33,882 nucleotides of DNA from contig JAGAMG010000018.1 in assembly GCA_017624835.1 (NCBI GenBank), positions 1-33,882 of the forward strand, given 5' to 3'. The DNA is from Lachnospiraceae bacterium (GTDB taxonomy: Bacteria > Bacillota > Clostridia > Lachnospirales > Lachnospiraceae). Positions 7,958-28,614 of this stretch are shown in pieces (the first letter of the stretch is position 1; every line of letters begins with the position of its first letter). The position numbers were made by a program, and so were the translations under genes. Under the pieces are notes generated by a model that had not been told where the DNA came from, did no database searches, and saw only the letters and a list, made by a program, of their open reading frames with translations.

Positions 7958-10522
7958 ATGAAAGCATTTGAAAAAATATTCGGCACCCATAGTTCCAGAG
8001 AGTTAAAGCGTATTATGCCCATGGTGGATAAGATTGAAGAACTGCGTCCTTCCATGCAGGCGCTTTCTGATGAGGAACTGCGTGCCAAGACAGAGGAATT
8101 TAAGAAACGTTTGACTGAAGGTGAAACCTTAAATGATATTCTTCCGGAAGCCTATGCAGTAGTGCGTGAGGCTGCAAAACGTGTGCTGAACATGGAGCAT
8201 TATCGTGTGCAGTTGATTGGTGGTATTATTCTGCATCAGGGAAGAATTGCAGAGATGCGTACCGGTGAAGGTAAGACCCTGGTGTCCACACTTCCTGCGT
8301 ACCTGAATGCCTTGGAAGGAAAGGGTGTACATGTTGTCACTGTCAATGATTATCTGGCAAAGCGTGATGCGGAGTGGATGGGACAGGTACATGAATTCCT
8401 TGGCTTGAAGGTTGGTGTTGTGTTAAACAGCATGCGTTCTGAGGAAAGAAAGGCAGCATATGGCTGTGACATTACTTATGTAACCAACAACGAGCTGGGC
8501 TTTGACTATCTTCGTGATAATATGGTTACTTACAAGGAACAGCTTGTTTTAAGAGATTTAAACTTCTGTATCATCGACGAGGTGGACTCCGTTTTAATTG
8601 ACGAGGCAAGAACACCTTTGATTATTTCCGGACAAAGCGGAAAGTCCACTGCTCTTTATGAGATGTGTGATTTACTGGCACGTCAAATGAAGCGCGGTGA
8701 TGATATGCAGCAATTATCCAAGATGGATGCCATCATGGGTATTGTACAGGAGGAAACCGGTGACTTTATCGTAAATGAAAAGGACAAGGTAATTAATCTG
8801 ACCGCAGCAGGTGTGGAGAGAGTAGAGCGTTTCTTCCATTTAGAGAACTATGCTGACCCTGAAAATTTGGAAATTCAGCATACCATTATTCTGGCATTGC
8901 GTGCCCATAACCTGATGTTCCGTGACCAGGACTATGTGGTAAAGGATGATCAGGTTATGATTGTAGACGAGTTTACCGGACGTATTATGCCCGGTCGTCG
9001 TTATTCAGATGGTTTGCATCAGGCAATTGAGGCAAAGGAGCGGGTAAAGGTTAAGCGTGAGAGCAAGACCCTTGCTTCCATTACCTTCCAGAACTTCTTC
9101 AACCTGTTTGCTAAGAAATGTGGTATGACCGGTACTGCTCTTACGGAAGAAAACGAGTTCCGTGAGATTTACGGTATGGACGTAGTAGAGATTCCTACCA
9201 ATCGTCCTGTTATTCGTATTGACCATCAGGATGCTGTATACAAGACCAAGGAAGAGAAACTTCGTGCTATTGTGGCAGCGGTTGAGGAAGCTCATGCAAA
9301 GGGACAGCCGGTTTTGGTTGGTACCATTACCATTGAGTCCAGTGAAGAAATCAGTAAGAGACTGACCAGAAGAGGTATTAAGCATAAGGTACTGAATGCA
9401 AAATTCCATGAGCTGGAGGCGGAAATTGTTGCAGATGCAGGTATCCACGGTGCAGTAACCATTGCTACCAATATGGCAGGACGTGGTACAGATATTAAGC
9501 TGGATGAAGAAGCAAAGGCGGCAGGCGGTTTAAAGATTATCGGTACCGAGCGTCATGAGTCCAGACGTATTGATAATCAGCTTCGTGGACGTTCCGGTCG
9601 TCAGGGAGACCCCGGTGAATCCAAGTTCTATATCTCCTTACAGGATGATTTGATGAGATTATTCGGCTCTGAAAGACTGATTAATATGTTTAATGCATTA
9701 GGTATTCCCGAGGATCAGGAAATTGAGCATAAGTCACTGACCAATGCTATTGAGTCTGCACAGAAGCGAATCGAAAATAATAACTTTGGTATTCGTAAGA
9801 ATCTGTTAGAGTATGACCGCGTTATGAGCGAGCAGCGAGAGATTATTTACGAAGAGAGAAGCCGCGTATTAAATGGCGAAAGCATGCGCGATGTGATTTA
9901 TAAAATGATTACCGATATTGCAGAAAATTGTGTGGATATCAGTATCAATGATGATGTGGATGCGGATGATTGGGATTACAATGAACTGAACAGTCTGCTT
10001 CTTCCTACCATTCCTCTGCAACCTGTAACTTTAGAGAGAGTGAAGAAGAATAAGAAAAACAGCTTGAAGCAGCAGTTGAAGGAAGAGGCTGTGAAGCTTT
10101 ATGAAAGCAAGGAAGCAGAGTTCCCGGATTCTGAAACCATCCGTGAAATTGAGCGTGTGATTTTACTTAAGGTAATTGACCGCAAGTGGATGGATCACAT
10201 TGATGATATGGAGCAGCTTCGTCAGGGTATCGGTTTACAGGCATACGGACAGAAAGACCCTCTGGTAGAATACAAAATGAGCGGTTATGACATGTTCGAT
10301 GAAATGACACAGAATATTAAAGAAGAGACTGTAAGGTTGCTTTTCCGTGTAAAGATTGAACAGAGAATTGAGCGTGAGCAGGTAGCAAAGGTGACCGGAA
10401 CCAACAAGGATGAATCCCTTAAGGCACCTGTAAAAAATGAAAACAACAAAGTTTACCCCAACGATCCCTGCCCCTGCGGAAGTGGCAAGAAATATAAGCA
10501 GTGCTGCGGACGCAAGGCGTGA
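7958..10522 (+). CDS. secA: Preprotein translocase ATPase SecA
   Basis: An 854-residue protein, normal length for SecA, the ATPase that drives unfolded secretory proteins through SecYEG at the membrane. Visible features are the Walker A region MRTGEGKT (100-107), NBD1 with [16 protein letters not shown] near 203-218, the pre-protein cross-linking region, an NBD2 with [12 protein letters not shown] and [11 protein letters not shown], the helical scaffold, and the C-terminal zinc motif with Cys838, Cys840, Cys849 and Cys850. The SecA-prfB gene order is typical of Firmicutes. The upstream raiA/hpf gene often found in this neighbourhood is absent. Confidence 0.98.
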
Positions 10523-10554
10523 TGATAGAAAGTAATATTTAGTATTGAAATTTG

Positions 10555-10809
10555 TAGTGGAATGAAATTGAGTGTGGGGGATGTGTTATTTTATGTTCCT
10601 TTGGGAGGGGATTAGAAATTCTTAGTATCCCCTCTAAATAGCAGCAATCCGAGGACAGGACGTCCGAGGAAAGCATGGTTGTGCCATGGATGGCACATTC
10701 ATGCTGTTTGCGTCAGGATTCAAAAGGTATATGGGGATACTTAGTATTTCTTATCCCTGTACATCGGAATATAAAATAACACATCCCCCACGCTCGTCGC
10801 ATCCCACTA
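10555..10809 (+). ncRNA. Large structured RNA candidate between secA and prfB (possibly raiA/ROAR-like)
   Basis: The secA-prfB gap holds an element closed by a very long helix: 10574-10594 pairs perfectly with 10771-10791 (21 bp) and continues through one G-U and TTCC/GGAA to 10599/10766. Outside it TAGTGG (10555-10560) pairs with CCACTA (10804-10809). Inside are hairpins GAGGGGAT/ATCCCCTC (10605-10634), GGAC/GTCC (10653-10665), a 13-bp two-part hairpin AGCATG..TGTGCCA/TGGCACA..CATGCT (10672-10705), a bridging AATCC/GGATT (10646-10650 with 10716-10720) and GGGATA/TATCCC (10734-10757). This is a multibranched fold of about 220 nt with no plausible protein. The size, and the known occurrence of raiA RNAs beside raiA-secA-prfB genes in Firmicutes, make raiA/ROAR the first family to test. 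The strand is inferred from the neighbouring genes. A MITE with long inverted ends is the main alternative. Confidence 0.65.
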
Positions 10810-10847
10810 GAAATTGTAATAATAAAATTATGAAAGAAGGTGACGCA

Positions 10848-11973
10848 GTGGTTGAATTAGACCAGATGAAAACAGAAATTCTGACCTACGAAACTCCATT
10901 AGCGGAAGTGAGGGATTCACTTTGACCTGGCTAGCAAGTCAAAGCGGATTGAAGAATTAGAGATGGAAATGGAGGCTCCCGGTTTTTGGGATGACCCGGA
11001 CAAATCCAATCTGAAAATGAAGGAATTGAAAAATTTAAAAGATACTGTAGGACAGTATGATAAGCTTGCCACTCAGTATGAGGATATCCTGACCTTGATT
11101 GAAATGGGTTACGAGGAAAATGATGAGTCTCTGGTGGCAGAGATTCGCAGCGAATTGGATGAATTTATTACAGAGTTTGAGGAACTGCGTCTCAGTACCT
11201 TGCTTGCAGGGGAATATGATAAAAATGATGCCATTTTGAAATTAAATGCCGGTGCCGGTGGTACAGAAAGCTGTGATTGGTGCAGTATGCTTTACAGAAT
11301 GTACACCAGATGGGCGGAGAGAAAAGGCTTTACCATTGAAGTCCTTGACTATCTGGATGGGGATGAAGCAGGTATTAAGTCCGTAACCTTCCAGGTGAAT
11401 GGTATCAATGCCTATGGTTATTTGAAATCTGAAAAGGGTGTGCATCGTTTGGTGCGTATTTCCCCCTTTAATGCCCAGGGTAAGCGACAGACCTCTTTTG
11501 TGTCTTTGGATGTTATGCCGGATATTGAAGAGGATTTGGATGTGGAAATCGATGAGAAGGATTTGCGAATTGATACCTACCGAAGCAGTGGTGCCGGTGG
11601 ACAGCATATCAATAAGACATCCTCTGCAATTCGTATTACCCACATTCCTACGGGAACGGTAGTACAGTGTCAGAATGAGCGTAGCCAGTTCCAAAATAAG
11701 GATAAGGCAATGCAGATGCTGAAAGCCAAGCTGTATCTGCTAAAGCAGGAAGCAAATGTAGAAAAGCTTTCCGATATCCGTGGTGAGGTAAAGGAAATTG
11801 GCTGGGGTAACCAGATTCGTTCCTATGTTATGCAGCCCTATACCATGGTAAAGGATCATCGCACAGATGTGGAGACAGGAAATGTGGATGCGGTTATGGA
11901 CGGAAGTCTCGATTTATTTATCAATGGCTATTTAAAGTGGCTCAGTGTGTCCCAGTCGGGAAAGGCAGAGTAA
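10848..11973 (+). CDS. prfB: Peptide chain release factor 2 (programmed +1 frameshift)
   Basis: RF2 releases completed chains at UGA and UAA stop codons. The first 25 codons run from a GTG at 10848 (VVELDQMKTEIL), with GAAGG at 10836-10840, to an in-frame TGA at 10923-10925. A +1 shift at CTT-TGA-C moves reading to GAC at 10924 and continues 349 codons to 11973, giving about 374 residues, the usual RF2 length. The catalytic loop GGQ is in SSGAGGQHINKTSSA, and an SPF codon-recognition-like motif is in RISPFNAQGKR. The gene follows the structured RNA by about 40 nt and ends at a bidirectional terminator. Confidence 0.95.
10910..10926 (+). promoter_or_regulatory. RF2 autoregulatory +1 frameshift site
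   Basis: The slippery CTT (10920-10922) precedes the in-frame TGA (10923-10925) and C, the classical CUU-UGA-C signal. An internal Shine-Dalgarno-like GAGGGA (10910-10915) lies 4 nt before the CTT, near the spacing that stimulates shifting in E. coli. When RF2 is scarce the ribosome pauses at UGA and shifts, so RF2 regulates its own synthesis. Confidence 0.93.
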
Positions 11974-26190: not shown

Positions 26191-28444
26191 TTGCAGTATC
26201 ACGCATGCTGCTTGGAGTCACACCATATACCTTCTTAAAAGCACGTCTAAAGGAATTGGCGTTATTATAACCCACGGCAATATACAATTCGTTTAAGCTG
26301 ATATCCGTTTCTCTGATAAGCCTTGCAGCTTCTGTCATACGAATATTTTCCAAATAGGTAGAGAAATTTACCCCGGTTTTTTCTTTAAACATATGGGAGA
26401 AATAACTCTCAGAAATCTGAAATTCATCGGAAATCTTGTTTAGTCCCAAGGAAGGATCCTGATAGTTCTTTGCTATATATTTCTCTATAGTGGCAGCCAG
26501 ATTGTTATCCTCGGATTCGTTGGTAAATAAATCGCACAGTGTTAAAGCAATATCTTCGCAGAGCTTAAAGGATAAATGCTCATTAAAAAGTTCATCCAGC
26601 TTCTTTACTGCCTCCGGGTCCGTATTGGATGGCAGGGCAAATCGAGCCTTAAGTAGTGTATTACGGATATCGGAAAGCAAATACTTCAAAAGATTGATGG
26701 GCAGGGAACGCTCCTCAATATTTTCCTGATGAATCAGGTTAAACAGCTCCAGTACCTGTGGTGTATTTCCGCTGGAAATAAAGTGAATCAGCTTAGTGGA
26801 AATCTCCGGAGGGTAATAAAATACATCGGATTTCTTCTTAATAAATTCGTAAGGGAAGAAAATATAATTCTTGGTGGTATAGCTTACCGCTTCTGTAGCC
26901 TGTTGGTAGGATTCCCATACATTCATCAAGGAATCCGTATTGCGTCCGATTCCTGCAAAAAGCCAAATATCGTAGGTATCCAGCATGTAATCGTGGAGTC
27001 TGGAAATCACACTGCCGATTTCCAAAACAAAATCCTTTTCCTTATCCGCGTCACAACGAAGTAAGATGGAATAGGTTCTTTCCGAAGGACTGAAATAATA
27101 CAAAGGAGTATCCAGGAAATTTTTTAATGCATTAGTAATAATAGTTTGCAATTCTTCCGGACTGCTGATGCTACTGGGCAGGATTTCCGTGTTATCCCCG
27201 GAATTATTATAAATCACCACATATAATACATTATAATAAGAAGGTGCCCCCCCTAAATCCAGGTAATCATGAATATAGGTGGCTTCTTCTTCGGATTTGA
27301 CTGCACCGGACAATAATTGTCTTACATAGGAGGTACAAATAATGGGGCGCTGATTGTCCACAACCTCCTGTAAGAGATTTTGTGCCTCCACTGCCTCATG
27401 AAGCTCCTGTCCCAATTCGATAATGGGCTGGATATTTCTGCGGGAGAAATGATATACCAGGAACCCGCCGCCTATAATTACCAGTGCAAAAACCAATAAG
27501 AAAATATAGTGTAGAGTTTCTGTGTTTACCGTTTCCTCAAAGGGGGGAAAACTATAATAATAGGTATAGCCTGTATTATCAGAAAAATATTTTCCGATGG
27601 TTGCTTTTACCTTACCATTATCATAGGAAGAAAAACCACTGTTAAAATTTAATGCCAGAACAGAATCTACATCATAAGCATGCCTTTCGTTTATGGAAAG
27701 AACAATGCTGCCATCCTCGGCTACCACTGTAAGGAAGCCGTTTCCGGGGGCTGTGATACAGTCAAAGAGCTCATTTAACCTGTCGGGGTCAAAAATAAAG
27801 CTGACGGTGGCATTGGCATCCATATAAAATAAATCATTCATATTAATAATGTACATATAAAAATCCCATTCCGCGGTGGGATAGGAGGAAAAATCCTCGA
27901 AAAGTAAAAATCGTTTATGGAAATCACTATTGGTCTGACATGTTATCCATGCCTCTTCCTCTTCCAGGGGATAGCTTTGTATAGATTCATAAAAACGCTG
28001 CCTGGTCAAAAGGTGGGTGCCGTTTAAAATATAATCGGTAAGGGGGAAATAGCAAAAGCTCTCTTTAATAGGAAGCAGGGACTCCAAATAAATGTCGGTA
28101 GCCAGCCGGTTTTGTAAATCAGTACCTTGTTCAATAAAAGTGGTATCACTTTGTTCCATATTCATAATTTTTCGGAAAGAATTTTCCTGTAGTAATTGAC
28201 GGCAATATACTTCCATAATATGTAAATCTGTTTCAAATAGCTCCACGTTATTTATAAGAGTGGTTTCCTTTTGTAAATTGTATGAATCATGAGTGTTATC
28301 TAAGGTGGATTGATAGATAAACAAAAATAAAACAAGAATTGCCAATAGGAAAATACTGTAAGAGGTTACCATTTTTAACATGCCGGAATTATTGCCATTT
28401 GTGGAATTTGTATTCTTTACTGCCTTTTTTCTATTCAAAATCAT
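26186..28444 (-). CDS. Membrane-anchored AraC-family regulator (YesS/YtdP-like)
   Basis: A protein of about 752 residues. TM1 lies near 24-45 (SIFLLAILVLFLFIYQS), an extracytoplasmic sensor of about 260 residues follows, then TM2 near 311-333 (FLLVFALVIIGGGFLVYHFS), a cytoplasmic linker and a C-terminal AraC/XylS double helix-turn-helix over the last 100 residues (LNKISDEFQISESYFSHMF and IAVGYNNANSFRRAFKKVYG). This is the architecture of B. subtilis YesS and YtdP, which sit in rhamnogalacturonan gene regions. The start at 28444 has GGGAG nearby (9-nt spacing); the longer frame from 28534 has none. It is divergent from the transporter operon and probably regulates it after sensing an extracellular sugar. 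Confidence 0.88.
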   Translation of the reverse strand: MILNRKKAVKNTNSTNGNNSGMLKMVTSYSIFLLAILVLFLFIYQSTLDNTHDSYNLQKETTLINNVELFETDLHIMEVYCRQLLQENSFRKIMNMEQSDTTFIEQGTDLQNRLATDIYLESLLPIKESFCYFPLTDYILNGTHLLTRQRFYESIQSYPLEEEEAWITCQTNSDFHKRFLLFEDFSSYPTAEWDFYMYIINMNDLFYMDANATVSFIFDPDRLNELFDCITAPGNGFLTVVAEDGSIVLSINERHAYDVDSVLALNFNSGFSSYDNGKVKATIGKYFSDNTGYTYYYSFPPFEETVNTETLHYIFLLVFALVIIGGGFLVYHFSRRNIQPIIELGQELHEAVEAQNLLQEVVDNQRPIICTSYVRQLLSGAVKSEEEATYIHDYLDLGGAPSYYNVLYVVIYNNSGDNTEILPSSISSPEELQTIITNALKNFLDTPLYYFSPSERTYSILLRCDADKEKDFVLEIGSVISRLHDYMLDTYDIWLFAGIGRNTDSLMNVWESYQQATEAVSYTTKNYIFFPYEFIKKKSDVFYYPPEISTKLIHFISSGNTPQVLELFNLIHQENIEERSLPINLLKYLLSDIRNTLLKARFALPSNTDPEAVKKLDELFNEHLSFKLCEDIALTLCDLFTNESEDNNLAATIEKYIAKNYQDPSLGLNKISDEFQISESYFSHMFKEKTGVNFSTYLENIRMTEAARLIRETDISLNELYIAVGYNNANSFRRAFKKVYGVTPSSMRDTAK

Positions 28445-28502
28445 GAAGGTTTTCTCCCAAAGTTCACTTTTGTCCTTAAATATGTCATAACAAATTATGC
28501 AC

Positions 28503-28531
28503 ATTATAACAGTTTTGTACAAAAAAAACAA
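28503..28531 (-). promoter_or_regulatory. Promoter of the AraC regulator gene
   Basis: On the minus strand TTGTTT (complement of 28526-28531), 17-bp spacer and TATAAT (complement of 28503-28508). The predicted leader is about 50 nt. The cre-like site begins 3 bp upstream of the -35 box. Confidence 0.65.
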
Positions 28532-28533
28532 CA

Positions 28534-28547
28534 TGTAAGCCCTTACA
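28534..28547. promoter_or_regulatory. Candidate CcpA cre site
   Basis: TGTAAGCCCTTACA matches the Gram-positive cre consensus TGWAARCGYTWWCA at 13 of 14 positions; the central G is C. It is a clean inverted repeat apart from the centre and lies between the regulator and transporter genes, as expected for catabolite control of sugar uptake. Confidence 0.6.
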
Positions 28548-28570
28548 AAAACCTAGGAAAATAAAGGGTT

Positions 28571-28614
28571 TGCAAAATTTGCACGCAAAAATTGCATGTC
28601 ATAGCAAAAATTGT
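28571..28614 (+). promoter_or_regulatory. Three GCAAAAWTTGY elements, candidate AraC binding sites
   Basis: GCAAAATTTGC (28572-28582), GCAAAAATTGC (28585-28595) and GCAAAAATTGT (28604-28614) lie in the divergent control region at steps of 13 and 19 bp. The copies are direct repeats of a half-palindromic word. AraC-family regulators usually bind repeated sites next to the promoter they activate. Confidence 0.5.

Follow-up and report, generated by a model that had tools for sequence, protein, structure and literature searches.

A dispersed palindromic repeat centred on the TwoAYGGAY RNA in Lachnospiraceae, with a possible link to CsrA

Introduction

The closest described relative of the element studied here is the Rfam family TwoAYGGAY (RF01731), whose record gives its function as unknown and its type as 'Cis-reg'. 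Binding of CsrA by this family was proposed in 2014 from matches to CsrA motifs (PMC4333381, in the accessible part of the paper). In the open full-text passages found under the family's name, we met no mention of mobility, of terminal inverted repeats (TIRs) or of co-occurrence with csrA. The copy analysed below resembles the family in its full-length match, its two hairpins with GGA loops and its inner helix, but the Rfam model ends at 168 positions, whereas the copies measured here run on into an outer helix.

Small RNAs of the CsrB/RsmZ type invite a second comparison. As in these RNAs, GGA stands in hairpin loops in TwoAYGGAY, there are many sites per cell, and the genomes concerned mostly carry csrA. 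However, each TwoAYGGAY RNA has at most two such loops and its copies are many and dispersed, whereas CsrB or RsmZ is one RNA with many sites; CsrA binding and titration by TwoAYGGAY are predictions. MITEs of the ERIC, Correia and RUP types are likewise comparable, in that TwoAYGGAY copies are short, dispersed, mostly intergenic and palindromic and, in one genome (G006), bounded by TIRs. The differences are a core that is multibranched and conserved between variable arms, close pairs that are always divergent, and units for which no autonomous partner was seen in the two genomes searched. Transcripts of Correia elements can be cleaved by RNase III, according to the accessible part of a review (PMC10969869).

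Results

A TwoAYGGAY palindrome between secA and prfB

The window, a stretch of 33,882 nt from a Lachnospiraceae genome (G000), contains a palindrome in the gap between secA and prfB. Inverted-repeat extension traced its arms (10533-10599 and 10766-10830) out to 10533 and 10830, giving a size of about 300 nt. The initial annotation had recognised a large paired element at this place, between a secA with its stop at 10522 and prfB, and NCBIfam models confirm both genes; its extent of about 220-250 nt was too short, since pairing continues beyond it on both sides. The features are as follows.

7958-10522, + strand: secA, 854 aa, upstream neighbour; NCBIfam PRK12904 / TIGR00963 over cut-off
10533-10599, + strand: left (5') arm of the outer helix, 67 nt, from inverted-repeat extension; outside the Rfam model
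10600-10765, + strand: core, matched to RF01731 (TwoAYGGAY) over all 168 model positions (1-168); window-wide cmscan, E 5.8e-22, 122.7 bits with a cut-off of 43
10621-10632, + strand: CTTAGTATCCCC, inner helix (conserved), 5' strand; partnered by 10733-10744 in both Rfam alignment and MFE structure
10648-10670, + strand: terminal hairpin 1; internal 2x2 loop of GA/GA; its loop region, ACAGGACGU, carries GGA at 10658-10660; from fold and Rfam alignment
10672-10705, + strand: second terminal hairpin; loop AUGGAU, GGA at 10688-10690; from fold and Rfam alignment
10733-10744, + strand: GGGGATACTTAG, inner helix (conserved), 3' strand; from Rfam alignment and MFE structure
10766-10830, + strand: right (3') arm of the outer helix, 65 nt; ends immediately 5' of the prfB ribosome-binding site
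10905-10926, + strand: frameshift-type motif with a CTTTGAC end, just 5' of the prfB body; from sequence
10963-11973, + strand: prfB body, downstream neighbour; NCBIfam TIGR00020, 511.6 bits

The element is thus a full member of RF01731, with two adjacent terminal hairpins whose loops bear GGA. When positions 10500-10860 (361 bases) were scanned against 4227 Rfam families at E<=1, the one match besides TwoAYGGAY was sX7, far below threshold at 19.1 of 55 bits. The raiA/ROAR RNA, which the initial annotation had named as the first family to test, gave no match (RF03072) in these 361 bases. Size and gene neighbourhood, and nothing more, speak for raiA/ROAR or another known ncRNA family; with the Rfam scan against it, this identity is already refuted at the level of sequence models, and we give it practically no credence.

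The minimum free energy of 10540-10825 was -139 kcal/mol, compared with a mean of -71.4 (sd 5.1) for 200 dinucleotide shuffles, none of which folded as well (z -13.2); as modelled, the pairing of the element is far past chance. The 21-bp perfect helix reported earlier is present, 10574-10594 and 10771-10791 being exact reverse complements, and its extension to about 26 bp holds with five further pairs, one of them G-U. Other details of the earlier fold have to be revised. Instead of at least four internal hairpins, both the fold and the Rfam consensus have two terminal hairpins, and the 2x2 internal loop assigned to a hairpin of 13 bp does exist, but in the smaller hairpin at 10648-10670, which is not of that length. 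The two 12-mers CTTAGTATCCCC and GGGGATACTTAG, thought to pair alternatively in a second conformation, together form the inner helix in the Rfam alignment as well as in the MFE structure; they pair with each other within a single structure, and a two-conformation switch was rejected on this ground. No promoter or terminator stands out in a simple scan.

Copies within and between genomes

The genome of the window carries 16 copies of TwoAYGGAY, all over the family cut-off. In the multi-genome searches, filters were stricter and at most 38, 7 or 6 candidates were scored per genome, so that absences and copy numbers are lower bounds: among 61 genomes, that of the window included, the RNA was found in 10, all of them among the 37 of the same genus and with 1 to 30 copies each, and in none of the 24 from other families of the order; a sample of the family yielded it in 60 of 396 genomes, one model recognising the core in 50 of 280 genera; and an overlapping sample of the order yielded it in 34 of 392 genomes, four of them weak matches in two other families (best E 4.9e-7 to 6.2e-4). 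Genomes were scored as RNA-bearing at E<=0.001, and 58 of the 60 in the family and 32 of the 34 in the order were over the family cut-off.

A strict core pattern was also searched in named genomes, and most of the 80 matches listed were from Lachnospiraceae (Roseburia, Lachnospira, Eubacterium, Hespellia). Five listed matches from unrelated phyla (L180, L187, L220, L237 and L240) gave no covariance-model match at E<=0.001 and are probably due to chance. The covariance search covered 80 of at least 120 strict-pattern loci, all picked by a perfect second hairpin. No plasmid or phage copies were found with blastn in two collections; a viral contig (L310, IMG/VR IMGVR_UViG_3300044727_000048) has the exact strict core pattern and is known from that pattern match alone. 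After removal of identical copies, 193 of 198 were kept, of which 191 entered the analysis of outer-helix pairing and 167 that of gene placement.

Pairing of the arms and covariation in the core

In all 191 copies the 45-nt flanks of the core paired with each other with a score >12 (median 29), whereas random cross-pairings exceeded 12 in 3.9% of cases. The arms of the measured copies are mostly about 30-110 nt long and some are shorter. The left arm in the window (10533-10599) scored 33.6 against its own partner and at most 12.8 against any other right arm in the genome. The best match of a flank was its own partner for 56 of 58 copies in the six genomes other than G006 (in G000, for 14 of 15), as compared with 4 of 25 in G006, where the copies are recent and share arms. 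Arm similarity between copies was detected by BLAST within G034, G007 and partly G010, and not within G000 or G008. As for the core, an alignment from three genera showed that 30 of the 33 predicted pairs have sequences in which both sides have changed and the pair is kept.

Around the Rfam core there is a longer hairpin, in which the arms stay paired and their sequence differs freely from one copy to the next. Together, the outer-helix pairing and the compensatory changes in the core indicate that the structure outlasts the sequence. In this respect the initial annotation was right to describe a conserved, multibranched structured element, since members of the family occur again in relatives and covary strongly. 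Five of the seven G007 copies (L144, L145, L147, L148 and L150) have inverted arms of about 270-440 nt, far longer than most. Two G000-G010 locus pairs were inspected as orthologous copies that might show compensatory arm changes; by eye their core subfamilies look different, and they were set aside as uninformative for that reason.

The arm mismatches bear on the main rival of a mobile CsrA sponge, namely a DNA-level repeat without an RNA job. Such a plain MITE or palindrome would have its helix kept or remade in DNA, as a cruciform or as a single-stranded hairpin in transposition, and its conserved loops would be transposase recognition sites. Arms that vary from copy to copy but still match their own partner are in line with it. 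Over all aligned positions of 181 distinct arms, G-U and A-C mismatches were about equally frequent (309 vs 283, p 0.30), which also suits a plain MITE. Isolated mismatches in the same arms show an excess of G-U (140 vs 94, p 0.003); its small size next to a tRNA control (13 vs 2, a small count from six tRNAs) suits a plain MITE too, but the excess itself counts against it, as do a core that one model finds in 50 of the 280 family genera and the compensatory changes in the alignment from three. The strong signature of a one-strand RNA helix, G-U far over A-C, is absent from the outer helix, where the G-U excess is weak, and a process at the DNA level may share in maintaining the palindrome. 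We take the plain MITE to be a serious contender, though probably not the correct account.

Mobile units

MITE-like behaviour is seen in one relative, G006, a single contig of 4.08 Mb with 30 copies, many of them near identical. These copies extend as one unit to common ends, TAA(A/C)TnGA(A/G)AGTTAG, which form terminal inverted repeats. Both ends were present in 22 of the 30 copies, in units of 461-694 bp. Of these 22 units, 17 are flanked by TA left and right, a flank for which target duplication and part of the TIR are not distinguishable. These units are MITE-like, and with TA at most of their ends they would be expected of a plain MITE as well. The window copy has no clear TIR or target duplication, outer arms being all that it shows, and the copies in its genome are more diverged than those of G006. 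Multiple dispersed copies of the MITE type had been set against a conserved RNA in the initial annotation; such dispersal is largely what we found, but a conserved RNA is not thereby refuted, because repeat and RNA are one thing.

No transposase unit with the same ends was noticed in a pattern search of G006 and G000, in which parts of four of six stretches were read by eye. The space between divergent copies at 1.1-1.6 kb from each other, and that within close pairs, was likewise considered as a place for a transposase, but the stretches read show an argJ-like gene or other ORFs, the ORF in L234 being one that we take to be argJ-like from its translation.

Copies less than 700 nt apart were divergent, minus then plus, in 18 of 18 pairs (L170, L190, L191, L196, L209, L210, L213, L214, L216, L219, L235, L238, L241, L300, L301, L303, L108 and L109), with none tandem or convergent, although the pairs are not independent since 11 come from one Lachnospira record set. 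A divergent pair is also found in the genome of the window (G000:C16, 28013-28176 minus and 28444-28610 plus). Nothing obvious in the way of a promoter was seen by eye in 15 of the 18 spacers.

Several further observations concern the G006 units, with the ends of the adjoining frames taken from plain ORF calls. The terminal TA(A) of the TIR ends (L078-L107; for example L085, L089, L094 and L096) coincides exactly with the stop codon, in frame, that closes the adjoining ORF in 23 of 47 cases, while any other distance occurs at most twice; four units overlap a stop codon at both ends, between convergent frames. If a TA duplication is assumed, the codon before insertion would have been a stop in 7 of 20 readable stop-codon ends. 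Some units also have, beside the TwoAYGGAY hairpin, a second palindromic module of about 180 nt that appears multibranched by eye (left part of L086); L086 has no other Rfam match at gathering score, and other units have different modules. Tandem arrays of an approximately 50-nt repeat, built on words resembling GGGGCTTAA / ATTACGCCCC, lie near copies or ends in L140 (G006:C1 near 1047000) and in the left flank of L107. Finally, L138 144-2197 is a 2-kb stretch between TIR-like ends with one TwoAYGGAY copy and, on the opposite strand, an ORF of 414 aa, a possible cargo.

Placement relative to prfB and other genes

The initial annotation had suggested a cis-element in the secA-prfB transcript, and as a leader, terminator or processing site the element could act locally on prfB. 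It lies on the same strand as secA and prfB, it adjoins the prfB ribosome-binding site, and the family bears the Rfam label 'Cis-reg'. Set against this are the 15 other copies elsewhere in the genome and the prfB neighbourhoods of 29 relatives, in which a model search found no copy as far as these neighbourhoods reach (that of L060 starts 78 nt before prfB). The secA-prfB gap, obtained for 14 of 30 loci (the window's own and those from 29 of 60 relatives), is 310 nt in the window; among the 13 measurable relatives, 11 have a gap of 13-133 nt and 2 one of 634-711 nt. Relatives without the element at prfB are not close enough to define an empty site to the base.

Placement was determined from plain ORF calls rather than annotation. 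Of 138 single copies, 41 were sense and 50 antisense to tandem neighbours, 35 lay between convergent genes and 12 between divergent genes. There is thus no sense bias, few copies occupy divergent intergenic regions, where leaders would sit, and the simple scan revealed no terminator-like site. Such placement is in keeping with a mobile element that is tolerated where genes end and is at odds with a leader, and the random orientation is also compatible with a plain MITE. We consider a local control element of prfB very improbable.

GGA loops and co-occurrence with csrA

CsrA has the SELEX consensus RUACARGGAUGU, with GGA mostly in a hairpin loop, and its SELEX ligands favour weak stems (accessible part of PMC7652899), whereas the TwoAYGGAY stems are long. 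Loops of the type ACA(N)GGAUGU in the first hairpin are similar to this consensus as quoted there. In an alignment of 58 cores, GGA was present in both hairpin loops in 45, in one in 13 and in neither in 0. The first loop of the window copy (CAGGACG including the closing pair) is one base short of the consensus and keeps GGA, a form common to 15 of the 58. A cruder count in fixed windows of 193 copies gave GGA in both loops in 117, the second only in 63, the first only in 10 and neither in 3; this count leans to GGA for the loci picked by a perfect second hairpin, and hence the alignment was relied on. Of the 8 cores aligned from the most amplified genome, 6 are without one of the two GGA words.

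Genomes with the RNA mostly carry csrA. In the family set, csrA was found in 56 of 60 RNA-bearing genomes and in 141 of 336 others (Fisher p 7e-15, with kinship ignored), a count that keeps 197 of 199 csrA genomes after two under the curated cut-off were dropped. The order set gave 33 of 34 versus 191 of 358, and each of its 19 RNA-bearing genera has a genome with csrA. Within the genus of the window there was no contrast (8 of 10 versus 23 of 27 among 37 genomes). Flagellin was present in 59 of the 60 RNA-bearing family genomes, and as flagellin was counted for these genomes alone, csrA is inseparable here from flagella and motility. Such a tie to flagellated, csrA-bearing genomes would be unexpected for a selfish repeat.

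In this group of bacteria no antagonist of CsrA other than FliW is known to date. We found fliW in 4 of 9 genomes tested, and it is adjacent to csrA in G006. Neither csrA nor fliW was found in the genome of the window (85% complete), in G536 (93%) or in G652 (91%), all three with flagellin, which fits an assembly gap. In G629, a single contig that is 99% complete and has one copy of the RNA, csrA, fliW and flagellin were all not found. These four are the exceptions among the 60, and the missing csrA of the window's genome and of G629 weighs against a CsrA role.

Discussion

The element in the window is one more copy of a known family. Against the literature found, and in so far as its text was accessible, the following appear to be new: the structure surrounding the core, its occurrence in mobile units, the divergent order of close pairs and the association with csrA. 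We favour the reading, at about even chances of its being right as a whole, that a dispersed, non-autonomous palindrome of a MITE-like kind, centred on the TwoAYGGAY RNA and a candidate titrator of CsrA, has inserted once in the window. The two parts of this reading differ in strength. We are highly confident that the element is a mobile repeat, while the predicted connection to CsrA, for which loop motifs and genome co-occurrence are the evidence, falls a little short of an even prospect.

The sponge reading could work as follows. Read-through from neighbouring genes would yield TwoAYGGAY RNA that folds, the long outer helix would be a likely target of RNase III, and the freed core would display one or two CsrA-type GGA hairpin loops; many copies might then jointly bind and titrate CsrA. 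In its fullest form, TwoAYGGAY would be a transposon-borne, distributed 'CsrB', in which tens of mobile hairpins, cut from read-through transcripts via the outer helix, titrate CsrA beside FliW. We put this forward tentatively and think it rather doubtful. Were it true, it would answer whether small RNAs and FliW can jointly control CsrA, a point called undetermined in the accessible part of PMC7652899.

These results give an orphan Rfam family an anatomy, in which a conserved core lies between the variable arms of a mobile palindrome, and link it statistically to csrA and flagella. Should CsrA binding fail, the family would belong among mobile DNA repeats and no longer among the cis-regulatory RNAs, where it is now filed. 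If CsrA binding is true, mobile repeats would act as a sponge of a global regulator in gut Clostridia, and their copy number would be an evolving dial on CsrA activity.
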